DNA of 49,489 nt from a virus: IMG/VR virus record IMGVR_UViG_3300031839_001727, positions 1 through 49,489 of that record; one strand, given 5' to 3'. Every line of letters starts with the position of its first letter. Position 1 is the stretch's first letter. Under the pieces are notes generated by a model. That model saw only the letters and a list, made by a program, of their open reading frames with translations. It was not told where the DNA came from and searched no databases. A program made the position numbers and the translations under genes. Positions 346 to 49,081 of the stretch are shown here, in pieces.

Positions 346-688
346 GTCATCCGAAAGTTGATAGATCATTCTCGACCGGCTAGCCGATCATCGCGCTGTG
401 CCGCCCCCACGGGGCGAGATGTGTTGTTCCGGGTTGCTTTGAACTGAAGCGCACCAAGGCGCTGGCCTTGAAGCCACCCGGCCCGCTAACTTCGGCTGCC
501 GCCTCGGACAATCGCCCTTGGAAAGACGCCATCCCGAAAACCGGAACAATCGACAGAACAGAGAGAACCTGGCAGTGGCGGGTTGCCGGGTTCAGGCATC
601 CAAGACGCTCAGGATGTGACGCGCTTGCAGATCCTTCGGCCTTCGCTCAACGCCTGCGATTGGCAGGTCCCTCGATTGGGCCAAGTGC
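346..688. other. Intergenic host-like stretch, no gene seen
   Basis: I see no convincing coding region, RNA gene or terminator between the tRNA-Ala and the first tRNA-Pro fragment. The short open frames here on both strands lack ribosome-binding sites and family resemblance. It is most simply host DNA between a tRNA gene and the phage insertion point. Confidence 0.5.
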
Positions 689-826
<138 letters not shown>

Positions 827-860
827 CTAGCCTGACGTCCTCGACGTCTCACGGCAGAAC

Positions 861-896
861 AAAAAAGGCCACTGCCCGGGATTACCGGACGGGGGC
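861..896 (-). terminator. Degenerate terminator, sister of the one at 2519-2554
   Basis: A GC-rich imperfect hairpin with the loop GATTA is bounded on its left by six A residues (861-866), giving a U-run on the minus strand. It has the same layout and much of the same sequence as the perfect terminator at 2519-2554, at about the same distance from its tRNA-Pro fragment. It therefore belongs to the duplicated phage end and has decayed. Confidence 0.55.
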
Positions 897-941
897 ACAG
901 CTAGTAGATAGGATGTTGCGAAAGACAGGAGTGCCGGAGCC

Positions 942-1843
942 TTGAATAACCTCGCCTCGACCGACGACTACCAGATCACATATCATGAAAGCCCAAAGGG
1001 CCCCGGCGGTCCCTTGGTAGTCACCTTCGGCGGTCAGGATTCCAAACTGACACCCACAGGGTTCGGCACGGGCTGGTGCCAGCGATGGGGCTGGGAAACG
1101 ATCTATGTCGCCCAACGGAAGGCTACCCAGTATCAATACCTGCCGCTCGATGCTTTTCTGGATGCCGTCTCTCCATTTTGCAAAGGACGCGATGTGGTCT
1201 GCTATGGCTCAAGTCTGGGGGCTACTGCGCATTCTACTTCGGCGGTGCTTTGGATGCTCGGATCGTAACCGCCGCGCCTATGCTGCCGGCGTGGCCTCCG
1301 CTTGGTCGTACCAACGACCAGATACCGCTGCAGCACATGCCCTTGGCCGATGTTCCCAGATCCACAAAGTCGCCGATCATCATCTATGATCCGATCGTCG
1401 CTCACGACCAAATGATGATCGACCAGATGATCATGCCAACCTATCCAGATGTGCGACTGGTCCCTATAGAGTTCGGTGGGCACGAAGTCCTTGAAACACT
1501 CAAGAGGGCCGGTCTTCTCAGTCCAGTGATTGAGACCATGATTGGTCGTGACGAGATACCGCCGATCGAATTCGATGGCTACAGCAACCCATTGTGGCTT
1601 TTCAGGCGCGGCCGCTTCTACTTGAAATCAGACCCACAACAGGCGCGTGACCTGCTGGAGCGTAGTTTGACGCTGGAGCCGTCGAAGCACGTGATCGGCA
1701 ATTTGCTGAGCCTGCTGATTCGTGTCGACGACTTGCCAGCGGCGCAAGCCCTGCTTGATAAGGTGCGAGGCAGCGCTGATCCAAAGATGCAGGTGCCACC
1801 GGGAATCCTGGAAAGAGCCCGTGCCGTGGGGCTTACGGGCTAG
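942..1843 (+). pseudogene. Frameshifted alpha/beta-hydrolase-like cargo gene
   Basis: Two overlapping frames make one protein of about 300 residues. The first, from a TTG at 942 preceded by CGGAG, runs to 1268. The second continues to the TAG at 1841-1843. The join falls in a run of five G at 1217-1221; a sixth G would restore CYGSSLGGYCAFYFGG, which contains the G-x-S-x-G nucleophile elbow of alpha/beta hydrolases. The C-terminal part looks TPR-like, with alternating short helices around LKSDPQQARDLLERSLTLEP. It faces away from the phage late genes and lies between the two attachment repeats. I cannot name a substrate. The frameshift could be decay, slippage in the G-run or a sequencing error. 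Confidence 0.6.
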
Positions 1844-2195
1844 GTGTTCTTCCTTTTCGCAGACAGGACGTCCTTGATGATGGCGCCGGCGGCGATCGCG
1901 ACGATCACCGCAACCGGCCATCAGCGCGGACCGGAACAATAGGCGCCGACGCCAAGCAGCGCGGCATCAACGATGCCGTCGCGCGGACTGCCGCCCCTGC
2001 GCTGGTTGCCGCGCTTATTCAGCATCGAGTATCCGACGGTGAGGACCAGCCTCGCGGCTGCGCCGGAGCGCCCAGCACGCCTTGCAGCGCTGCCCCCGGA
2101 ATGAGGTGGCTGATCCCGCTGACCGCCCACAGATAGCCGCTGCCATTGGTAGGACGCATTGCCGCGGTCCAGAGCCCATGGATCGTCGGTATCAT
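1840..2195 (-). pseudogene. Broken copy of the phage membrane-protein gene at 3570-3932
   Basis: The nucleotide sequence parallels 3570-3932 over its whole length. Translation shows the same protein with two lesions. One is a 1-nt loss after GVLGA that changes frame. The other is a TGA where the intact copy has the first Trp of SGPRWWP. Similarity continues through 2196-2225 into the last codons of the neighbouring tail gene (3929-4717), then stops. It is thus a fragment of a second related prophage's end, not a local gene duplication. Its stop overlaps the stop of the hydrolase-like gene. Confidence 0.75.
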
Positions 2196-2306
2196 AGTGA
2201 CAGACCCGGATATTGATCCGCCTGTCTGACCGTCTCGGTGAGAAGCTTCGAATGGCCGAAACCCGAACAAAACTGAAAAACGGGGTACCATGAACTGGGC
2301 CAAGCT

Positions 2307-2446
<140 letters not shown>

Positions 2447-2518
2447 GCTGTCTCGCCCTCAAGGTCGATTTCGAACTAGAGGGCGTCCGTGCCCCCATCG
2501 TCAGGCGGCCCGAAACGC

Positions 2519-2554
2519 AAAAAGGCCCCCGCCCGGGATCACCGGGCGGGGGCC
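2519..2554 (-). terminator. Strong intrinsic terminator ending the late operon
   Basis: A perfect 13-bp stem (2524-2536 with 2542-2554, loop GATCA) is followed on the minus strand by five U from 2523-2519. It lies 72 bp beyond the stop codon of the dam-like gene and closes the long leftward transcription unit. Confidence 0.9.
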
Positions 2555-2625
2555 AATCAATATGGAGATCGTCGGATCACAAACTATAGCGCCCGAACGA
2601 CGTGGCGTGCGGCAACGCTCAGCTA

Positions 2626-3441
2626 TCACCAAGCAAAGTTGCTTATGAGCAACTCCCCGGCCGCCGTTGCGCCGGTGCGGTTCGCGATGCTGTAGCTTGT
2701 CTTGAGCGGGGTCATCGTGAACCGATCGAAGGTCTGGCGCACCTGGATGTTATCGTTGATCGAAAGCAGGAACCGACCCTTTATCGAGGCAAGCTGCTCG
2801 GCCAGTCGCGTGAAATCCTCGCGTGACCACATGCCTTTGCCATAGTCATCCTCATTCCCCCAGTAAGGCGGGTCCAGATAGAAGAGGGTCTCCGAGCGGT
2901 CGATCCGGTCGATGAACGCCGCGCAGTCCATGCAGGTGACGGTAACGCCGGCGAGGCGAGAATGCAGAGCCTCCAGATCGGGCTCGAGCGTCGTCAGGTT
3001 GAACCGCGCCGGCCGATCGGCCGAGATCCCGAAGTTTCTGCCGCTGACCTTCCCGCCAAACGAGGTCCGCTGAAGAAACAGGAACCGCGCGGCGCGCTGA
3101 AGGTCGGTCAGGGTTGCGGGATCGGTCCTGACCAGGCGCTCGAAATTCGATTGCGTGGTGATCTGGAAACGCAGGAGATCGAGAAAGGCGACATAGTGTT
3201 CCTGCAGAATCCGGAACAGCGTGTAGATCTCTTGCGATCGGTCGTTGATGAACTCGGCGCGCGGCTGGCGACGGCGGCGCAGGAAGATCCCGCCCATGCC
3301 GACAAAAGGCTCCGCATAGGTCAGATGGTCGTCGGCATCGATGATCTGGCAGATGCGCTTTGCGAGGTTTCGTTTGCCGCCAAGATAGGGGGCGGCGGGA
3401 TTGATGGGGGAGACTGTCGTTTTTGGGGTAGCCGAATCCAT
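2626..3441 (-). CDS. Dam-type DNA N6-adenine methyltransferase
   Basis: This would transfer a methyl group from S-adenosylmethionine to adenine N6 in DNA, by family analogy often in GATC. Residues 17-24 (APYLGGKR) and 43-53 (AEPFVGMGGIF, the SAM-binding motif) precede the catalytic DPPY at 190-193. The length of 271 residues is typical of the D12 class. The frame is open further upstream, but the ATG at 3441 directly precedes the first conserved segment. It is the last gene before the terminator and sits where the remnant prophage carries a hydrolase-like gene. No partner endonuclease is visible, so a role in protecting phage DNA or modulating expression is more likely than a full restriction system. 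Confidence 0.88.
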   Translation of the reverse strand: MDSATPKTTVSPINPAAPYLGGKRNLAKRICQIIDADDHLTYAEPFVGMGGIFLRRRRQPRAEFINDRSQEIYTLFRILQEHYVAFLDLLRFQITTQSNFERLVRTDPATLTDLQRAARFLFLQRTSFGGKVSGRNFGISADRPARFNLTTLEPDLEALHSRLAGVTVTCMDCAAFIDRIDRSETLFYLDPPYWGNEDDYGKGMWSREDFTRLAEQLASIKGRFLLSINDNIQVRQTFDRFTMTPLKTSYSIANRTGATAAGELLISNFAW

Positions 3442-3569
3442 TTGAGCTGTGCCTTGATGCCGGTCCCCTCGAGGGGAGGGAGCGGCCATATTCGCGTTCT
3501 GGTCGGCGGGGAGAGTTTCCAGTTCTGCCCCGTGTCGAAGGGTCTTCCCACCCTTCGGCCTCCCGGCGC

Positions 3570-3932
3570 TTACCGGGTGGTGTTCTTCACTGTCGTTGGT
3601 CGTGTTTCCTTGATGATGGCCCCGGCAGTGATCGCGACGATCACCGCGATCGGCCACCAGCGCGGACCGGAATAGAAGGCGCCGACGCCAACCAGCGCAG
3701 CATCAACGATACCGTCACGCAAACTGCCGCCCCTGCGCAGGTCGCCGCGCTCCTTCAGCATCCAGTAAACGACGGTGAGGACCAGCCTCGCCGCGGCGCC
3801 TGAAGCGCCCAGCACGCCCTGTAGAGCGGCGCCCAGCATGACGTGACTGATCCCGATGACTGCCCACAGATAGCCGCTGCCGATCGTCGGGCGCATTGCT
3901 TCGGCCCAGAGCCTGCGGATCGCCGCGCTCAT
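3570..3932 (-). CDS. Small multi-pass membrane protein
   Basis: The product has 120 residues and three or four hydrophobic stretches: YLWAVIGISHVMLGAALQG (about 21-39), ARLVLTVVYWML (about 48-59), IVDAALVGVGAFY (about 76-88) and PIAVIVAITAGAII (about 94-107). The C-terminus is charged. Size and topology would suit a holin or a superinfection-exclusion protein, but I recognise no family. Its start overlaps the stop of the upstream tail gene, so it is co-transcribed with late genes. A broken copy lies at 1840-2195, which shows the gene is a stable part of this phage end. Confidence 0.7.
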   Translation of the reverse strand: MSAAIRRLWAEAMRPTIGSGYLWAVIGISHVMLGAALQGVLGASGAAARLVLTVVYWMLKERGDLRRGGSLRDGIVDAALVGVGAFYSGPRWWPIAVIVAITAGAIIKETRPTTVKNTTR

Positions 3933-4717
3933 AGCGACAGCCCCGGATACTGAGCCGCCAGTTCGCTGCGGATCAGTGCGACATGATCGTCATAGGCGCT
4001 TGTTCCGTCGGTGATCATGACCACCTGCCGTCCCAGCAAGCCCGTCACGCCGGGGTTAGCCTGCCGCCCTATGCGGTTGATCAGGTAATCAGTCCAGCCG
4101 ACCGGTAGCACCTCGGTGTCCATCAGAACCCCATCAACGAACAAGCGCGCCTGCTCGGGGATCATCTCGATCTCGACCAGATGCAGGCCGGTTGAGATCC
4201 CCGGCCATGCCAGCGTCACGGTCTCGTTGGTGCTGCCGTTGTTCCGCAGCAGGTCGATCTGATCATTTTGCGGGCGGAACCTGATGTTCGTTGGCGGTGC
4301 GATGCTATTGCCCATGACGTAAACAGGGTCCACCGCTAACGATAGATTCTCAACCATGAACAGGCGGGTGCCCATCAGGTCCATCACGCTCGCCGGGCTG
4401 AGGTAGGACGTGGCGGAAGTGTTGTCGATGTCCAGATAATCGCCCGACAGCGTGATATCCGAACCGGCCTGCGTCGTCAGATCGAATGCCGCCCCAGCTC
4501 CGCCGCTATTCGGCAGTGTCGCCACCTGCGCGCCTGACAGCGCGGCGTTGCTCGGGATGAAATCGGTCGGCACCTGGCCGAGGCCGGTGCCGTAGAGATC
4601 GCCGATCGTCGGCGCGGCAGGCTTGCGCCATATCTCGGCGCCGCCGTGGAACAGCGCGGCGATCTCGTCGGGGCCGCGCCACATGCGCCGGATCGAGCCG
4701 GTCGGCAGAAAGGGCAT
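3929..4717 (-). CDS. LamG-like tail or receptor-binding protein
   Basis: The 262-residue protein begins with RRMWRGPDEIAALFHGGAEIWRKP, a version of the RG-x-V-x-x-hydrophobic-GA-x-x-IW motif also at the start of 5031-5723. The remainder looks like a concanavalin/LamG beta-sandwich: alternating beta segments, GLHLVEIEMIPEQARLFVDG, and a closing helix ending SELAAQYPGLSL. Such domains in phage tails commonly bind host glycans. It overlaps its upstream neighbour by ATGA and its downstream neighbour by a few bases. The C-terminal end is duplicated in the remnant at 2196-2225. The glycan-binding role is inference. Confidence 0.65.
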   Translation of the reverse strand: MPFLPTGSIRRMWRGPDEIAALFHGGAEIWRKPAAPTIGDLYGTGLGQVPTDFIPSNAALSGAQVATLPNSGGAGAAFDLTTQAGSDITLSGDYLDIDNTSATSYLSPASVMDLMGTRLFMVENLSLAVDPVYVMGNSIAPPTNIRFRPQNDQIDLLRNNGSTNETVTLAWPGISTGLHLVEIEMIPEQARLFVDGVLMDTEVLPVGWTDYLINRIGRQANPGVTGLLGRQVVMITDGTSAYDDHVALIRSELAAQYPGLSL

Positions 4718-28605: not shown

Positions 28606-29160
28606 TCAGCCGCGCTCGAGGATGTGGCGCAGCTCATGCATGGCCCGCTGCAGGACGACGGCGGAGCTGACGTCGAACTCCCTGATCGGCTCAGGCTTCA
28701 TGATCTCGTTGGGGATGGATGGTCCCCACAACTTCTCGATCGCGTTCATCCTGCCGGACTTCGAGTTGAAGCCCCCTGTGCGGCGGAAGACGTTGCCACC
28801 GATGGAGCGAACGATGAAGGATGATGGAAAGCGCCGGCTCTTGTTCCAGGGGTTCGCCCTGACGCCATAGGAGAACTGGCGGGCGCGAAAGTATTTGAGC
28901 GGGAATGCATTACCCTTTGCATTTATTTCCGCCTCGAGTTTGTTTGACCGGGCACGGATCAGTTTATTGGCCCGTCCAATATCTCCAACCTTGATTCCAG
29001 TTTGACGACGCAGGACGCGGTTAATCCGCGTCCGTGCTTTCGCCGTTTCGTGGTTCATGGCTCGAGAGAATGCCTTTCGGGCTTTACCCTGGCCGACGCG
29101 ATAGACTGCCGCCTCGAAGTGTGTCCGGGCGTCTTTGTCGATCTCTCGGATCTCGAACAT
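28606..29160 (-). CDS. GPZ-like minor tail protein
   Basis: The 184-residue protein is basic and alpha-helical at first (KDARTHFEAAVYRVGQGKARKAFSRAMNHETAKARTRINRVLRRQTGIK). A beta part follows (NKLEAEINAKGNAFPLKYFRARQFSYGVRANPWNKSRRFPSSFIV). This layout matches the prophage minor tail protein Z / HK97 gp10-like family. It is the first leftward gene before the terminase, an unusual place for a tail gene but one seen in chimeric phages. Start at 29160 has only a weak ribosome-binding site. Confidence 0.65.
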   Translation of the reverse strand: MFEIREIDKDARTHFEAAVYRVGQGKARKAFSRAMNHETAKARTRINRVLRRQTGIKVGDIGRANKLIRARSNKLEAEINAKGNAFPLKYFRARQFSYGVRANPWNKSRRFPSSFIVRSIGGNVFRRTGGFNSKSGRMNAIEKLWGPSIPNEIMKPEPIREFDVSSAVVLQRAMHELRHILERG

Positions 29161-30567: not shown

Positions 30568-31191
30568 ATGTGCAACCTCTACAGCAGCACCCTGCCCCAG
30601 GAAGCTATTCGCCGGCTGTTCGACGGCCTGGACGACCGCGTCGGCAACCTCGAGCCCGGCCGGGTCTTTCCAGATCAGATGGCACCGATCATCAGGAACG
30701 CATCAGGCGACGGGCTCGAACTGGTAAAGGCGCGATGGGGCATGCCATCGCCTCCTTCGGTGCTAAAGACCGAGCGCGATCCCGGCGTCACAAACGTCCG
30801 GAACCTGTCATCGCCGCACTGGCGCCGTTGGCTTGGAAAAGAGAACCGTTGCCTCGTCCCGGTGACCAGCATTGCCGAGCCGCTCGGCAAGGGCAAAGGG
30901 AACCAGTGGTTTACCGCGGCAGATCCCGACCGGAACATGTTCTTCGCCGGCATCGAGACACGCGGGTGGAAATCGGTCCGCAAGGTGAAGGACGGCGAGA
31001 CGACCGACGACCTCTATGCCTTCCTCACCTGCCCTCCGAACGCCGAGGTTAAAGCGGTTCACCCGAAGGCAATGCCTGTCATCCTGACCGAGGAAGAAGA
31101 ATGGTCGGCCTGGCTCGGCGGGATCGACGCGAAGGAGCTGCAACGGCCCTTGCCAGACGGGGCGCTCCACCTCGTTGAGAAGGAACAGTAG
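30568..31191 (+). CDS. SRAP-domain protein (YedK/HMCES-like)
   Basis: The 207-residue protein begins MCNLY, with the catalytic Cys2 exposed after Met removal. It contains a region RCLVPVTSIAEPL, a candidate active-site Glu in FAGIETRGW, and the conserved VHPKAMPVIL His. SRAP proteins form a thiazolidine crosslink with abasic sites in single-stranded DNA and protect them. Length is near the family norm. A phage copy could guard replicating genomes against abasic damage. Confidence 0.88.
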   Translation: MCNLYSSTLPQEAIRRLFDGLDDRVGNLEPGRVFPDQMAPIIRNASGDGLELVKARWGMPSPPSVLKTERDPGVTNVRNLSSPHWRRWLGKENRCLVPVTSIAEPLGKGKGNQWFTAADPDRNMFFAGIETRGWKSVRKVKDGETTDDLYAFLTCPPNAEVKAVHPKAMPVILTEEEEWSAWLGGIDAKELQRPLPDGALHLVEKEQ

Positions 31192-31333: not shown

Positions 31334-32410
31334 ATGAGCCCTCGTTTTGAAAAACTGATCATTCACGTCGGCGACATGAAGACTGGCACCACCTCGATTC
31401 AGGCGGCTCTGGCGGCCCGGAACGTTCCCGACGTCGGCCTGAGCGTCGTCTATCCCGGTGGTGCGTTGAACCACAACGAGCTGGCTCAGGCGCTAGCAAA
31501 CCCGGCCGGAACCGAGATCCGTCCGAGGATCGCCAAGCTACGAGAAATGATCGAGAAGGCTCCTGACGGCGATATTTGCATCATCTCGGCAGAGAACCTT
31601 TGTGATGGTTCGCCGGCGGTGATCGCAAAAGAAATAGACCGATGGCTTTCAGATCTTGCCCGGGACGTGACGGTCATCCACTATGTTCGACCACACTTTG
31701 GCTACCTGACATCGCGCTATATCGAAGCGGTGAAGACCGGAACGAGTGTCGGCTCATTTGATGCCTGGACGGCCATGATGATCGAGAAGGACATGCACAA
31801 GGCGGCGCCTCGGGTTGATGAATGGCGCGGGGCGATGCAGGGGCGATACATCGCCCGCGCATTCGTCAGGAGTGAACTGGTTCGAGGTGACGCGGTTGCC
31901 GACTTCTTCACGCAGGTTCTGGGCCCCCTACCCGACCAATGGACCGCACCGAAGGGCAACAACGAGGCCTTGCCCGTTGAGGCTCTGGACGCGCTGATGG
32001 AACTGCAGAGCAAGTTCTGTCGGCTACCACAAGTGTTCCGATCGGCGTTCGGACGACATTTCGCGATGGTCTATTCCGACATGTTTGGTGGTCGTCCGGC
32101 GACCAAGTTGATGCCCTCAGCCGAACTGGCCGAAACGATTCACGCCGCCTGTGCTGACGATGCGGATCGGCTTGATCGTGAACTTTCTTCCGGATCCGCA
32201 TTATTCCGAAATGACCTCGATAGCTGCCTTGAATCGTCAGGAGACGCGTCGGCATATTCCGGCAAGCCGCTGACCACTGATGAATTGGCGGAGTTAAGCG
32301 GACGGCTTTTCGCTGAGATGGCCGAAGCACTCGGTGCAAAGGAGTGCGGTGCCGCGCTCCATAGTCGCCGATCCGCCAGGCTTGTTGGCATGGCGAGTGG
32401 GCATGACTGA
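31334..32410 (+). CDS. Sulfotransferase-like protein 1
   Basis: The 358-residue protein starts KLIIHVGDMKTGTTSIQAAL: the KTGTT loop is the 5'-phosphosulfate-binding motif of PAPS-dependent sulfotransferases. Around 110-130, HYVRPHFGYLTSRYIEAV provides an Arg and Ser typical of the 3'-phosphate site. The rest is alpha-helical and variable. Two relatives lie at 34154-35335 and 35351-36310, all with the same N-terminal motif, so the three are diverged paralogues or family members. Such enzymes sulfate polysaccharides or lipids. Donor and acceptor are not shown, and other P-loop transferases are possible. Confidence 0.7.
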   Translation: MSPRFEKLIIHVGDMKTGTTSIQAALAARNVPDVGLSVVYPGGALNHNELAQALANPAGTEIRPRIAKLREMIEKAPDGDICIISAENLCDGSPAVIAKEIDRWLSDLARDVTVIHYVRPHFGYLTSRYIEAVKTGTSVGSFDAWTAMMIEKDMHKAAPRVDEWRGAMQGRYIARAFVRSELVRGDAVADFFTQVLGPLPDQWTAPKGNNEALPVEALDALMELQSKFCRLPQVFRSAFGRHFAMVYSDMFGGRPATKLMPSAELAETIHAACADDADRLDRELSSGSALFRNDLDSCLESSGDASAYSGKPLTTDELAELSGRLFAEMAEALGAKECGAALHSRRSARLVGMASGHD

Positions 32411-32890
32411 GTGCGAGCTACTGAGGCGCCGCGACTGCCGCCACAGTCACAGTCACAGTCACAGTCACAGTCACAGTCACAGATCAAAAGATCACACGCC
32501 TCGACGAACTCCTTCCCTAGCGTTACCTTTTACGAGCAGCGCAACAAGCCTCGCGCCGGTTCAATAGGTCGAGTTCGGCCGACGGGCACGGACCGGCTCT
32601 GCGATGACGACGAGAAGAGACGGACATGACCCATGATGACCTTGAATCAAACTGCATACTGCGGCAGACAACACTGTGCCTGATCCCGGAGATGACCGAA
32701 CTTCAGGTTTGGTGGCCCTCGCCGAGATGAGGCGTCATCGTGAAACGACGGATCGAACGACGAAACAGACCTGAGGTGTACGCCTTACCTTTCCTTGCTC
32801 ACCGATACATCCGCGTGCAGTTGCGCGAAGTAAATCGGCATACACGCCGAATTATGATCGACCCATACGGAATAGTTAGAAAGATCGCCG
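32411..32890. other. Non-coding stretch between cassette genes
   Basis: No convincing gene lies here. A reading frame at 32740-33000 overlaps the next gene and lacks family resemblance. The stretch holds the hexanucleotide repeat (32442-32482) and, at 32752-32763, GATCGAACGACG, a motif found before other phage genes. A promoter for the next gene may lie here, but I could not identify it with confidence. Confidence 0.5.
32442..32482. repeat. Hexanucleotide tandem repeat (CACAGT)6.8
   Basis: The unit CACAGT is repeated nearly seven times without interruption, 31 bp after the stop of the first sulfotransferase-like gene and about 410 bp before the pyruvyl-transferase-like gene. Pure short tandem repeats change copy number easily. 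Because the unit is six bases, change would not shift a frame but would alter promoter or leader spacing. Confidence 0.95.
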
Positions 32891-34096
32891 ATGAGAGTTT
32901 TTTTCCACGGTCCAGGCTTGGCAGTGCATCGCCCTGCCTTTCCGCTCCCGAACATGAACGGGGTTCAGCCCACAGCAGTCGATACGCTGTCCGGGCTTAA
33001 GGAATCCCAAAACCTCACTAGCAACCGCGGCAACATCATTCACGCCGAAGCTCCGGCTAGGATATTCAGGAAAGATGCAGTTCATTCTGGCTATGGTAAC
33101 ATCGCCAAACTGCACAGCTCTTTGGGCGAAAATTTTGCAAAAAGAATGTCGAAAAATTTCGATATAATTATTCTTTCTATGGCTAACTTCATCCGTCCGA
33201 AGGTTGAGTTCGACCGAATTTTGACGGCGATGAAATCCTTGGATGGTCGGGTACCTTTTATGGTGCTCGGTGCCGGCATGCAAGGCAATTCAGATATTTC
33301 AGAACTGACTCCATCCGTTCGGGAGGTGCTGTCGTTCTTCAATAATCATGCTCTAGTTTTCGGAGTCAGGGGAAAATTTACCGAGAGCTGGCTGCACGCC
33401 AACGGTTACGACAAGGCTCAGGCTCTAGGCTGCCCAAGCCTTTACAGCTTTCCGCAATCGATCCTGTCCATCGATGCCAGTGAGGTACGGACTAAAGGAA
33501 ATCGGGCCAATGTTATGACCGCGGGTTACTTGACCCTAAAAGATGGTCATAACTTTCAACGAGGGAAGAAACTGGCCAAGGCGATGGAAGGAGTGAGGGC
33601 CTCGTATGTTTTTCAAGACGAGTTTCTGGCATATCGAGAATTGGCCAAGAAGCCCTTCAGCTTCAACGAGGGAACTAACACGGCAGATGCAGGGCTTCTC
33701 AACAGCGCGTTGAGTGTCCAGACCGGGGCGGCGATCGATTTCGAGCGCTATTACTATTTTACGGAAGCAAGTGCTTGGCGCCAGGCTACCCTTGCGCATG
33801 ATCTATATCTCGGTGACCGATTCCACGGCGGCGTCGCTGCTCTGCAGGCCGGACAGCCGGCCATCTTTCTGGCTCATGATACTCGCGTTCAAGAGCTTAC
33901 GGATTTTTTCGGGTTTCCACGGCTAACCATTGATGAATTCGCGAAAATGGGGCTGGCAGACACGATCGATAAATATCTGTCGGATGACATTATTGGAGAC
34001 TTTAAGGAAACATATCGCAAGCGTTATGAAGCGTTTTCAATGGTGATGGCAAATCATGGACTTTCAACTGTCGCAAATCTACCGGAGATAAATTAA
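32891..34096 (+). CDS. Polysaccharide pyruvyl transferase-like protein
   Basis: The 401-residue protein has an N-terminal Rossmann-like region (MRVFFHGPGLAVHRPAFPLP), a middle segment PFMVLGAGMQGNSDISEL and VFGVRGKFTESWLHANGYDKAQALGCPSLYSFP, and the C-terminal DLYLGDRFHGGVAALQAGQPAIFLAHD. This order, including the R.H....A...G.P motif, matches PS_pyruv_trans, which adds pyruvate ketal to sugars using phosphoenolpyruvate. The codon choice is noticeably more A+T-rich than in the phage structural genes. It sits between sulfotransferase-like genes, so it is part of a glycan-decorating cassette. Confidence 0.75.
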   Translation: MRVFFHGPGLAVHRPAFPLPNMNGVQPTAVDTLSGLKESQNLTSNRGNIIHAEAPARIFRKDAVHSGYGNIAKLHSSLGENFAKRMSKNFDIIILSMANFIRPKVEFDRILTAMKSLDGRVPFMVLGAGMQGNSDISELTPSVREVLSFFNNHALVFGVRGKFTESWLHANGYDKAQALGCPSLYSFPQSILSIDASEVRTKGNRANVMTAGYLTLKDGHNFQRGKKLAKAMEGVRASYVFQDEFLAYRELAKKPFSFNEGTNTADAGLLNSALSVQTGAAIDFERYYYFTEASAWRQATLAHDLYLGDRFHGGVAALQAGQPAIFLAHDTRVQELTDFFGFPRLTIDEFAKMGLADTIDKYLSDDIIGDFKETYRKRYEAFSMVMANHGLSTVANLPEIN

Positions 34097-34153
34097 CTCA
34101 AGACTGAGCAGGCCTCGTATTTCTCGCAGGAAATCGCAACGTGACAACTTGGC

Positions 34154-35335
34154 ATGAGGTACTGTTCCTTGGCCGTTGGAAGGAATGAACTTATTACACA
34201 TCTTACCCTTCATATCGGTGATCCGAAAACCGGAACATCCTCGATCCAGTACGCTTTGGGACGGGGGTTGGTGGACGCTAGCCCTCAGCGACTGGTCTTA
34301 TGGGAACAGTCCAATGCCATTGCTCTAGCAAGAGCCTTGCAGCCAGAAGGTGTCTCTAAACAGTCCAAGCGTTATGGAGAAGTGCGCGATTGGATATCAC
34401 GCTGCGACGCCGATCACGCTGTTATTTCATCGGAATTTTTTTCCTTTTGCGTCCCGGCCGTTTTGCAAGACGTCCTACGCCACCACGTTCCTAGCCATGC
34501 CGATACAGCGCGAATTATCGCATATGTGCGCCCGCACACATCGAGATTTATGGCTGCCTTCATACAGCATACAAAAGCAGGAAAAATATTTGATGATATA
34601 GGGACTTTCTTTGAAAATACAACAAAAACCCGGAGTATGAACCGTGCCGGAAGATTTGGCCGCTGGCGTAGACAGTTCGGCGAGCAGTTTACTTTGCGCC
34701 CTTTCATTCGGGGCGAACTGCGCGGACAAGATGTGGTCACAGATTTCGTCACGGAAGTTCTAGGTAGCGATCCCTTTCGCCTGACTTCCCCAGTCGAACA
34801 AAATGTAGCAGTTCCGTTGCAGGCACTGGCAGGAATGCAACTTATGCACCGCCGACTAAAGCATGCCGGTATACCGAATTTCTGTCGGGGAATATTAGGC
34901 GGAGCAATGGCCAATACCTTTCTTCCAATGGGTAAGCTCGAGGGTGAAAAACCAGAACTGGATCGCGCAACGGCCGCGGCATTGATCAAAGTTTGCGCGG
35001 CAGATGCGAAGAAACTGGACAGGATGTTCTTTTCTGCGCCGCTGATGCAGGAGACTCTGGAACGATCAATCGACAAGGTGAGGGAACGTCCAATTGATCT
35101 GACCCCATCACTTTATTTTTCGCCCGCCCGTAAACAGAGGGTGATCGCGCTGAGTGACGAAATAGCTAGGTCTCTCGCAGAGAAGCGGAAAGTGTGGTTG
35201 TTGCATCAGAAGGTTCGGAAGCAGCAAGTCAAAGTATCATCTGAAGACAAGGCTAAACTCGCAGAAAACCAATCCTATTTGGAGCGTGTCGACCGGGGAC
35301 TGGCGGAACTGGCGGACGTTTTGCGTGAGGCATGA
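34154..35335 (+). CDS. Sulfotransferase-like protein 2
   Basis: The 393-residue protein carries THLTLHIGDPKTGTSSIQYAL at residues 15-35, the PAPS-loop pattern of the family, and IAYVRPHTSRFMAAFIQ around 117-133 for the 3'-phosphate site. The C-terminus is a Lys/Glu-rich coiled part (KVRKQQVKVSSEDKAKLAENQ) not present in the other two. The start is uncertain: the ATG at 34154 has a weak ribosome-binding site, and an internal TTG is possible. A+T-rich codons and opposite orientation to phage genes suggest a transferred cassette. Confidence 0.68.
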   Translation: MRYCSLAVGRNELITHLTLHIGDPKTGTSSIQYALGRGLVDASPQRLVLWEQSNAIALARALQPEGVSKQSKRYGEVRDWISRCDADHAVISSEFFSFCVPAVLQDVLRHHVPSHADTARIIAYVRPHTSRFMAAFIQHTKAGKIFDDIGTFFENTTKTRSMNRAGRFGRWRRQFGEQFTLRPFIRGELRGQDVVTDFVTEVLGSDPFRLTSPVEQNVAVPLQALAGMQLMHRRLKHAGIPNFCRGILGGAMANTFLPMGKLEGEKPELDRATAAALIKVCAADAKKLDRMFFSAPLMQETLERSIDKVRERPIDLTPSLYFSPARKQRVIALSDEIARSLAEKRKVWLLHQKVRKQQVKVSSEDKAKLAENQSYLERVDRGLAELADVLREA

Positions 35336-35350
35336 ATAGCGAGAGAGAGA

Positions 35351-36310
35351 GTGGCAGACATGGCCAGTTTAATTATCCATATTGGTTCTCACAAGACGGG
35401 AACTACCGCGGTTCAGCGGGCATGCTTCAGGCATCTGAACGAGGCTACCTCCTATATCAACATCCGTCCCACGGGTACGCGTATTATTAAGTCGTCCGGG
35501 CAACTGGAGAATTTTCGGGCCTGGATTGATTTAGATGCTGTGGATCAACTGTTCCGTCCTAACCAGGAAGAAATGCGGTTTATTACCTCGGATGAAGAAT
35601 TCTTCTGGATTTACGAACCCGATTCGGTCGAGCGCTTTGCCGCCCTACTGAGACAGCGGTATGACTCAATCACTGTTCTATGCTATTTGCGCCGGCAGGA
35701 TCGGTTGGCAGTGTCGCACCGCAAACAGGTCTCCGAGGGCAACACTCCCGCTGCACGGTTTTACGGCGTTATGGCCACCCCCCTACCAGAGTACGCAATG
35801 CATCTGGACCGCTATTTCGACTATAATGAAAAACTGTCCGAGATTTGGGCCAAAGCCTTTGGCCGACAGAACATTACCGTAGTTCCCTATGATCGCAAGA
35901 CCCTCGTCGGAGGCGATATCGTCGAGGACTTTGCTCATCGTTGTGGCTTGCAGTTCAACCTAACCGAACCCATACGCGTGAATTCGTCACTGGATGGAAA
36001 TCGTACGTTCTTGGGCCTGAAATTGTCGGAACTGAAGATTGCCAGGCCACGGCGCAAGAAGATAATCGATCGTTTGCCGGGCTCTGGAACATTCGTGCCC
36101 GCCCGTGCCGAAGCACAGGCATTTTTAGCACATTTCGCAGAGGCGAACGAGCGGTTGGCCCGGAACTGGCAGTTTGAGGGTGCACCGTTTCGCTTTGATA
36201 GGGATTTCACTTTCTATCCGGAGTCCCGCAGTCTCTGGAGTACCGAAAGCGTGGAACAAATACTGCAGGCTGTGCTTCTCGGAGGAGCCGGGCAAAACGA
36301 GAAGATGTAG
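35351..36310 (+). CDS. Sulfotransferase-like protein 3
   Basis: The product (319 residues from the GTG at 35351, or 316 from an ATG at 35360) has SLIIHIGSHKTGTTAVQRAC at the N-terminus, the PAPS-loop pattern. ITVLCYLRRQDRLAVSHRKQV (about 107-127) gives an Arg and Ser for the 3'-phosphate site. The run GAGAGAGAGAG just upstream serves as ribosome-binding site and makes the ATG at 35360 also well placed. It is the last gene of the rightward cassette and meets the leftward early genes in a short convergent gap. Confidence 0.7.
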   Translation: MADMASLIIHIGSHKTGTTAVQRACFRHLNEATSYINIRPTGTRIIKSSGQLENFRAWIDLDAVDQLFRPNQEEMRFITSDEEFFWIYEPDSVERFAALLRQRYDSITVLCYLRRQDRLAVSHRKQVSEGNTPAARFYGVMATPLPEYAMHLDRYFDYNEKLSEIWAKAFGRQNITVVPYDRKTLVGGDIVEDFAHRCGLQFNLTEPIRVNSSLDGNRTFLGLKLSELKIARPRRKKIIDRLPGSGTFVPARAEAQAFLAHFAEANERLARNWQFEGAPFRFDRDFTFYPESRSLWSTESVEQILQAVLLGGAGQNEKM

Positions 36311-36518: not shown

Positions 36519-36824
36519 TCATGAACTTTCGCCTATGATCTGATCGCGCAGCTGGCGATCGGTCAGCGGAGTTCGCTGCCGAGCCAGCATGATGCGACCC
36601 AACTCGCGCCGGGTTACCTCATGTGCACCCGCCCTTATGGCAAGCCTGCGCTTGGACATTGCGATGTCGAAGTGCTCGTAGATCGTGCCGGGCTTTTGCA
36701 ACCATTTGCGCTGGACGCCGATCAGGTCGGCCATGGCCAGCAGTTCTTCGGTTGTGTCAGCCATCATATGGCACATCTTCATGCGGCCGAAGGGTGCCTG
36801 CATGTCGTCGACATAGACTGTCAT
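36519..36824 (-). CDS. DUF4031-family protein
   Basis: The start at 36824 overlaps the previous stop as ATGA. The 101-residue product opens MTVYVDDMQAPFGRMKMCHM and goes on with ADTTEELLAMADLIGV and YEHFDIAMSKRRLAIRAGAHEVT. This is the DUF4031 pattern, a small protein of unknown function frequent in phages and their hosts. It is the last gene of an operon with two methyltransferases. Confidence 0.85.
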   Translation of the reverse strand: MTVYVDDMQAPFGRMKMCHMMADTTEELLAMADLIGVQRKWLQKPGTIYEHFDIAMSKRRLAIRAGAHEVTRRELGRIMLARQRTPLTDRQLRDQIIGESS

Positions 36825-37492
36825 GCCGCCTCCTCGAGGGCATAACCGCCCCACTGATCCGCGCAAGCCTCGGCCACTCCTTCGTATGTCCGGCTGCGGA
36901 TCTTCCAGCGGTCAGGGCCGGGCGGCGTGCGATGCACCGCGTTCCAGCGCTTCCAGTCATCGCTTCCGCGCTCAGGCTCCGGCAGGCGGTTGGTCTCGGA
37001 CAGCTGAGGCAGTCCGCGCAGGTAGAAGCCCGTCGCCTTGTAGGCGGGCTCGCCGAACCAGAATGGTTGCACCATCTGCGGACGAGGCAGATCGGACGGC
37101 ATCCGGTCGCGCGCGAGGTCGTTCATTTCCGGGTTCTCGATCGCAACGCGCTCGATCGGCGCTCGCCAGCAGGCGATGAACAGCGCCACGCCTTCCTCGA
37201 ACTCGGCGCGGAGATCTTCCACCGTCCGACCCTTGGGCAGCTTCTTGGGAGGCGTCCATTTGCCGGGCCCGGACATCCAGCGCCGGCCCGACCGGCACAG
37301 CCGGGTGCAGGGCGGATGCATGACGGCGAGCAGATCCCATCCGTCATCAAGCAGGTCGCGGACATCACACATGATATGGCGGTTGCTGCCATCCTCGGCC
37401 GGCAGGAGATCGCAGGACCAGACATCATGGCCTCGTGCCGAAAAGGCGCGGCGCATGACGCCAGAGGTTTCGCAGCCAATCAGGATCTTCAT
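36821..37492 (-). CDS. Cytosine-C5-methyltransferase-like protein
   Basis: The 223-residue protein has ILIGCETSGVMRRAFSARGHDVWSCDLLP (residues 3-31, a SAM-binding fold start), AVMHPPCTRLCRSGRR (56-70, with the PPC catalytic-type motif at 60-62) and a VAIENPEMND block. These are the first motifs of C5-MTases in a shortened form; the large target-recognition domain is missing. Such short proteins are common in phages and may act on DNA or be inactive. Its start lies just beside the end of the upstream gene. Confidence 0.75.
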   Translation of the reverse strand: MKILIGCETSGVMRRAFSARGHDVWSCDLLPAEDGSNRHIMCDVRDLLDDGWDLLAVMHPPCTRLCRSGRRWMSGPGKWTPPKKLPKGRTVEDLRAEFEEGVALFIACWRAPIERVAIENPEMNDLARDRMPSDLPRPQMVQPFWFGEPAYKATGFYLRGLPQLSETNRLPEPERGSDDWKRWNAVHRTPPGPDRWKIRSRTYEGVAEACADQWGGYALEEAA

Positions 37493-48347: not shown

Positions 48348-48490
48348 GATACGTTTCCGATTCTGTCGCTTCCGGCAACTGGAAAATTCCCGACTTTGAT
48401 CTAAACTAAGCGCTTACTTTCTCCGGGACCGGTCACCCTGAGGCAGTAGATCGAACGACGAAGAACGACTGAACACAGATCGAGGAAAAA

Positions 48491-49081
48491 ATGGAAAACC
48501 CCCTGCGCGCTCGGATGGCCGAGCGCTTTGCTGCCACAGGCATCAGCCCTGTGGCGGTAGCTATCAAGATCGGGAAGGGCCGGGATTACATCCGGGATTT
48601 TCTTGAGGGCCGGAAACAGAGCATCAACTTCAAGCTGGTTAGCGAGATCGCGAGGGAACTCGATTGCGATCCGCACTACCTGACCGGCGAGATCGGCGCG
48701 CCAGATGGTTCCAGCCTCAGGGTGTCGGGCATGATCGAGGCGGGCGTCTGGCGAACGGGCGAGGCCGCGCCGACGACCAACATCCGAATACCGGCCGACT
48801 CCCGCTACTCACAAGAGACCCAGAAAGCGTTCATCGTTCGAGGCGATACCTGGAAAGACGCTGGAATCGACGACGGCTCTGTGGTCGTCACGACCAGCGA
48901 ATTACCAGCGCGCGACGGTGATCTTGTGGTGATCACCCAAGAGGGCGACGAATCGTCGTTCGAGACAACGATCGGGGCCGTGAAGAAGCGCATCATTGAG
49001 GTTCCTGGAGGCCGAAACATTCCCTTTGAGGATGCCAAGATTCTCGGAATCGTCGTGATGGAAATGAAGGTCTTCGGCTGA
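48491..49081 (+). CDS. cI: CI-like phage repressor (HTH + S24-type domain)
   Basis: The 196-residue protein maintains lysogeny. An N-terminal HTH (about 13-45, AATGISPVAVAIKIGKGRDYIRDFLEG) is followed by a LexA/S24-type domain. The cleavage-site-like IEAGVW lies at 82-87 and KKR at 165-167. The catalytic Ser of the GDS motif is replaced: the sequence reads VRGDTW (116-121), with Thr120 in the Ser position. Self-cleavage may be slow or absent, so induction may depend on another factor. A ribosome-binding site (GAGGA) precedes 48491, and it is divergent from cro. It likely binds the TCGGA-type dyads. Confidence 0.85.
   Translation: MENPLRARMAERFAATGISPVAVAIKIGKGRDYIRDFLEGRKQSINFKLVSEIARELDCDPHYLTGEIGAPDGSSLRVSGMIEAGVWRTGEAAPTTNIRIPADSRYSQETQKAFIVRGDTWKDAGIDDGSVVVTTSELPARDGDLVVITQEGDESSFETTIGAVKKRIIEVPGGRNIPFEDAKILGIVVMEMKVFG

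Follow-up and report, generated by a model that had tools for sequence, protein, structure and literature searches.

What is a phage doing with three sulfotransferase-like genes and a pyruvyl transferase gene between its structural and its replication genes? The question is raised by positions 31334 to 36310 of IMG/VR virus record IMGVR_UViG_3300031839_001727, which was analyzed over its whole 49,489 bases (the window). The record, an alphaproteobacterial-type myovirus with portal, terminase, head, sheath, tape-measure, lysin, primase/helicase, and repressor genes, holds in this region four intact plus-strand open reading frames (ORFs), here called A to D, that are bounded on both sides by phage genes. 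We consider it probable that A to D form a lysogenic-conversion (moron) block decorating a host-made surface polysaccharide by sulfation and pyruvylation.

Enzyme families of the four genes

The enzyme classes proposed in a first-pass annotation of the DNA, sulfotransferase-like and pyruvyl transferase-like, are borne out by Pfam for B, by fold for C and D, and by homology and motifs for A. The profile searches suggested there as a check recovered PS_pyruv_trans (PF04230) in B, whereas A, C, and D fell below every Pfam sulfotransferase cutoff, so that a fold comparison was needed for the sulfotransferases.

Gene B (positions 32891 to 34096, plus strand, 401 amino acids) passes the cutoff of the polysaccharide pyruvyl transferase family PF04230 (51.2 bits against 25.3; 2.2e-13) and thereby resembles the CsaB/WcaK-type enzymes. 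Over its full length it is 52 to 54% identical to Rhodobacterales relatives, including 53% to Phaeobacter plasmid proteins annotated as belonging to the polysaccharide pyruvyl transferase family, and it groups with Rhodobacterales sequences in the tree. The histidine of its GDRFHG motif (H312) is invariant in an alignment confined to B relatives; the invariant histidine of the family is H270 in CsaB (PMC3545897). A search of the PDB by sequence gave no match for B. The B relatives in loci L017 (5559 to 7529), L111 (9117 to 11123), and L132 (12947 to 14956) have a C-terminal extension, with a total length of about 650 to 670 amino acids, that the phage protein lacks and that is shorter in the Gemmobacter relative (443 amino acids). 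The pyruvyl transferase of Paracoccus saliphilus (L134), which was considered as a further relative, is not close and was left out of the evidence on B.

Genes A (31334 to 32410, 358 amino acids) and C (34154 to 35335, 393 amino acids), both on the plus strand, belong to one family (AC) and share 31% identity (9.5e-30); the plus-strand gene D (35360 to 36310, 316 amino acids) is more distant from C (1e-6 in one comparison). The gene coordinates of the first-pass annotation were correct apart from the start of D, which had been set at GTG 35351 (319 amino acids) and more likely lies at ATG 35360, because the D homologues start there. The closest relative of A stems from Gemmobacter aquaticus (L018, 41.6%), and D is 53% identical to a protein of Shimia (L008) and falls within Rhodobacterales sequences in the tree. 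For A, C, and D, no match above the cutoff was found in Pfam or NCBIfam, and no functional PHROG was assigned. The missing Pfam match excludes the three proteins from the Pfam sulfotransferase families and not from the superfamily, membership of which rests on fold and motifs.

The predicted AlphaFold structures of C and D (predicted local distance difference test [pLDDT], 93 and 90) nevertheless match the fold of 3'-phosphoadenosine-5'-phosphosulfate (PAPS) sulfotransferases and lie nearest to the glycan-acting heparan sulfate enzymes, not to the cytosolic ones. In VIA-align, the C model reached Z 17.0 to the bacterial structure 3rnl and 15.4 to 16.3 to the heparan sulfate sulfotransferases NDST1 (1nst/8ccy) and 3-OST (1t8t/6xl8), and the D model reached 13.0 to 14.0 to 3-OST, NDST, and 3rnl, whereas both stayed at Z 8 to 11 against cytosolic SULT and tyrosylprotein sulfotransferases and at Z 8 to 10 against P-loop kinases. 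The best Foldseek match of the D model was 3rnl (1.1e-05). This likeness in fold (Z 13 to 17) contrasts with an identity of 12 to 18% and no Pfam-level match; C and D alone found nothing in the PDB by sequence, and the D family profile yielded a weak match to 3rnl and nothing else.

Homology to C and the common motifs would join A to the same class. All three proteins share the N-terminal PAPS-loop motif HIG/HVG-x-x-KTGT-(S/T), which reads HVGDMKTGTT in A, and its core (H, G, K, and G of HxGxxKTGT(T/S)) is invariant across the AC and D family alignments. PAPS sulfotransferases bind the 3'-phosphate with an arginine and a serine eight residues on. This arginine is present in A, C, and D; the position eight residues on is serine in A and D, as in 39 of the 44 aligned family members, and alanine in C. 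An invariant glutamate (E94 in C, E79 in D) that follows the next strand may be the catalytic base, as in the heparan sulfate enzymes. The cofactor-binding strand begins at residue 3 (D) or 16 (C) of the models, which leaves no space for a signal sequence and suggests that the enzymes act in the cytoplasm.

Relatives in capsule loci and on biofilm-type plasmids

The surface polysaccharide named as the target in the first-pass annotation is supported by the capsule and exopolysaccharide (EPS) neighborhood of the relatives, a context from which the acceptor is predicted. Altogether, 68 loci with relatives of the cassette genes were found, mostly in Rhodobacterales. The AC and D relatives are accompanied by KpsM/T/E (ABC-2) exporters, UDP-galactopyranose mutase (glf), galactofuranosyltransferase-type genes, and glycosyltransferases of families 2 and 4 (GT2 and GT4), and RTX repeat proteins adjoin some relatives of the cassette genes. 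The order AC-GT2-GT4-D occurs in Epibacterium (L012) and on plasmid pPGA2_71 of Phaeobacter inhibens 2.10 (NC_018422.1), and the order AC-GT2-GT4-D-B occurs in a Bugula symbiont (L017). Plasmid pPGA2_71 combines AC family homologues and counterparts of D (37.5%) and B (53%) with rfbABCD, kps, and glf; a P. inhibens RepA-I plasmid with a rhamnose operon is required for biofilm formation and algal colonization (PMC8224337). Of the 394 family genomes, only 5 have a B relative at E <= 1e-20, and three of these five also contain strong D relatives, compared with about 0.1 expected by chance (hypergeometric p 5e-5, for a threshold picked after the data had been seen).

The B relative of G. aquaticus (54%) has as neighbors CysD, a CysN-adenosine 5'-phosphosulfate (APS) kinase fusion, a Sulfotransfer_2 protein, an ABC ATPase, and UDP-glucose dehydrogenase; rfb and kps genes are also found with it, and the 42,926-base contig that carries this B relative (L110) also encodes a relative of A (L019, 37%). 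As an observation in its own right, the CysD, CysN-APS kinase, and Sulfotransfer_2 genes (L110, 8310 to 15575) are situated inside a KpsMTE-type locus, which makes this region a candidate sulfated capsule locus in Gemmobacter, outside the cyanobacteria. With respect to their origin, A to D are best placed within Rhodobacterales families, as derivatives of the capsule clusters found in marine-type bacteria. We considered whether a single known locus had recently donated the entire block and rejected this, since the best relatives of the four genes are spread over different genomes, at 40 to 54% identity.

Setting, composition, and distribution of the cassette

The four genes had been described as a row that faces against the phage structural genes and is A+T-rich in its middle. 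Order and strand are as described: the head and tail genes on the left, like the DNA methyltransferase and replication genes on the right, are all encoded on the minus strand, opposite to A to D. The spacing is uneven, with gaps of 480 nucleotides (nt) between A and B, 57 nt between B and C, and 24 nt between C and D. Relative to a GC content of 0.617 +/- 0.020 for 34 phage genes, the A+T shift applies to B (0.497, z -6.0), C (0.509, z -5.4), and D (0.525, z -4.6) and not to A, whose value of 0.584 (z -1.7) is close to that of the phage. The cassette thus consists of two blocks, a tight, A+T-rich B-C-D unit and a separate gene A, which may have been acquired independently, given its nearly phage-like GC content and its distance from B. 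With regard to the features of morons, A to D lie inside the phage on the opposite strand, and foreign composition is evident for B to D and not clearly for A.

Two noncoding elements fall into the gap between A and B. A perfect (CACAGT)6.8 tandem repeat (32442 to 32482; Tandem Repeats Finder score, 82) begins 31 nt past the stop codon of A and could be a phase-variable spacer, or nothing. The 14-mer GATCGAACGACGAA (32751 to 32764, plus strand) lies upstream of B and occurs exactly twice in the window; the other copy (48449 to 48462) is in the leader of a repressor-like gene at 48491. Both copies sit inside a 31-nt repeat (74% identical), and a regulatory sequence common to B and the repressor-like gene is possible.

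The flanking genes are a connector/neck gene on the left (28606 to 29160, minus strand), a side that also holds small plus-strand genes; an SRAP-domain gene (30568 to 31191, plus strand, phrog_1599) directly upstream of A; and, on the right, a phage gene of unknown function (36519 to 36824) and the DNA methyltransferase gene (36821 to 37492), both on the minus strand. No integrase was detected among the ORFs of the record scanned with PHROGs, and its terminase has relatives (34 to 38%) in VP882 and phiHAP-1, which are plasmid-type prophages. A tRNA-Ala gene (270 to 345) lies near diverged tandem duplications (677 to 3962; 81 to 87% identity, spacing about 1.62 and 1.74 kb), parts of which resemble a tRNA 3' end (677 to 741 and 2296 to 2360); the duplications may mark an attachment region or repeated integrations.

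Genes for backbone synthesis, export, and PAPS supply were searched for in the window, and kpsMTE, glf, GT2, GT4, ugd, rfbABCD, cysD, and cysNC gave no match at E 0.01, while the controls were found. A to D are not a complete capsule or EPS biosynthesis locus; because these genes are lacking from the window, the phage carries the decorating step only and would depend on the PAPS, phosphoenolpyruvate, and polysaccharide of its host. PADLOC assigned none of the four genes to a defense family.

Closer terminase relatives (about 57 to 63%) are present in Rhodobacteraceae genomes, in IMG/VR, and in the Microcystis phage Mae-JY30, with other small genes in this region. Homologues of A to D were absent from 11 stretches around such terminases, which represent parts of phages, and none was annotated in the region of Mae-JY30 that was read. 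B, C, and D had no match in 50,697 phage records, and IMG/VR, queried with B, C, an A-C-D alignment, and alignments of the B, D, and AC families, contained no B or AC relatives and a single D relative, although pattern-seeded scans of these collections can miss distant relatives. The latter, a D-type sulfotransferase (44%; L131, 142 to 1179), sits at the edge of a fragment from an unrelated phage (IMGVR_UViG_2882423277_000003) and may represent host flank or another capture.

Proposed role in the lysogen and comparison with known systems

What we infer for the lysogen concerns activity, acceptor, expression, and benefit. In the cytoplasm, A, C, and D would move sulfate from host PAPS, and B would move pyruvate from host phosphoenolpyruvate, onto sugars of a nascent or lipid-linked chain of the host capsule or EPS, probably of a KpsMTE-exported type containing galactofuranose or rhamnose. 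The host would then export the decorated chain with added negative charge, and phage receptors would be lost or changed (superinfection exclusion), attachment would be altered, or both. Blocked phage adsorption and changed antigenicity, the outcomes proposed in the first-pass annotation, may follow. A changed phage adsorption of the lysogen is plausible by analogy, and an effect on attachment or biofilm formation, suggested by the relatives on biofilm-type plasmids, is equally plausible. Several points weigh against this proposal: Pfam sulfotransferase profiles gave faint matches in only 1 of 17 D and 2 of 27 AC family members; the alanine in place of the phosphate-binding serine may indicate a weak or altered function of C; no outstanding sigma-70-like promoter was seen upstream of A or B; the threshold behind the co-occurrence of B and D was post hoc; and a suitable host capsule is assumed.

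The same chemistry might have been selected for attachment rather than phage exclusion, A to D being a phage-carried piece of a biofilm-plasmid-type polysaccharide pathway. The joint presence of AC, D, and B homologues on pPGA2_71 and the similar interpretation of a Shimia prophage with rfbABCD (PMC8224337) lend this explanation some weight, and we regard it as a real, if minor, possibility. It has to contend with the lack of backbone and export genes in the phage and with the classical effect of prophage surface changes on phage sensitivity; loss of the pyruvyl transferase CsaB makes Bacillus anthracis resistant to phage AP50c, although probably indirectly via S-layer anchoring (PMC3545897, PMC9703825). 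Attachment and phage exclusion are compatible with each other.

It is unlikely that A to D are passive passengers, gained when the phage recombined with a plasmid or capsule locus and silent or nonfunctional in the lysogen. The strong A+T shift of B to D, the absence of the cassette from the examined stretches of terminase relatives, the alanine in C, and the lack of a clear promoter would all fit such a history, but four intact ORFs that align over nearly their full length with relatives only 40 to 54% identical suggest upkeep at least until recently, and the spacing of B, C, and D is operon-like. Still less credence is given to sulfotransferases acting elsewhere, on a lipid, a small molecule, the glycan of a secreted RTX protein, or the phage particle. 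The fold by itself does not specify the acceptor, and RTX repeat proteins lie next to relatives; yet the nearest folds are glycan acting, relatives repeatedly have capsule export and galactofuranose genes as neighbors, and the partner B is a polysaccharide-type pyruvyl transferase.

A decorating block for host polysaccharide would give phage sulfotransferases a testable role, sulfation together with pyruvylation, since the relatives are found in defined capsule and EPS loci and on a biofilm-type plasmid. It also places two uncharacterized, Pfam-invisible sulfotransferase families in Rhodobacterales capsule loci, which bears on the question of which bacteria make sulfated polysaccharides, stated to be unreported in bacteria outside the cyanobacteria (PMC8205485). 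More specifically, the charge pattern of a Rhodobacterales-type capsule could be rewritten jointly by three specialized glycan sulfotransferases, all dark to Pfam, and the pyruvyl transferase, so that lysogens would resist capsule-dependent phages. This idea is rather doubtful; if true, A to D would constitute a phage-encoded system for glycan sulfation with a defined role, the first of its kind.

Among known systems, Phaeobacter RepA-I biofilm plasmids such as pPGA2_71 resemble the phage in holding AC family, D, and B homologues together, and differ in that the plasmid also encodes the whole of backbone synthesis and of export (rfb, glf, kps, and glycosyltransferases), whereas the phage has decorating enzymes only. 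The Rhodobacterales capsule and EPS loci (e.g., of Gemmobacter, Epibacterium, the Bugula symbiont, and Shimia) share the enzyme families, sometimes in the order AC-GT2-GT4-D(-B), but are chromosomal or plasmid borne and at best 40 to 54% identical. The view in the first-pass annotation that only single surface-modifying genes are known from prophages was too strong: rfbABCD is carried by a prophage of Shimia haliotis (PMC8224337), and in Eggerthella lenta prophages as many as six exopolysaccharide genes form an operon, one of them encoding a pyruvyl transferase (PMC8778435). Like the O-antigen gtr genes (e.g., PMC4413052), these are prophage cargo expected or shown to alter surface polysaccharide, as proposed for A to D, but none joins several sulfotransferases to a pyruvyl transferase, and the literature searched contained no description of a set that unites three glycan-type sulfotransferases and a pyruvyl transferase. 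Phages of OM43 bacteria likewise encode sulfotransferases, of the Sulfotransfer_3 family and with a function stated as unclear (PMC10580990), which differ from A, C, and D as single genes of another family. Multigene polysaccharide cargo of prophages and single phage sulfotransferases are already known; the combination in A to D had no counterpart in the searches made here of IMG/VR and the phage records.

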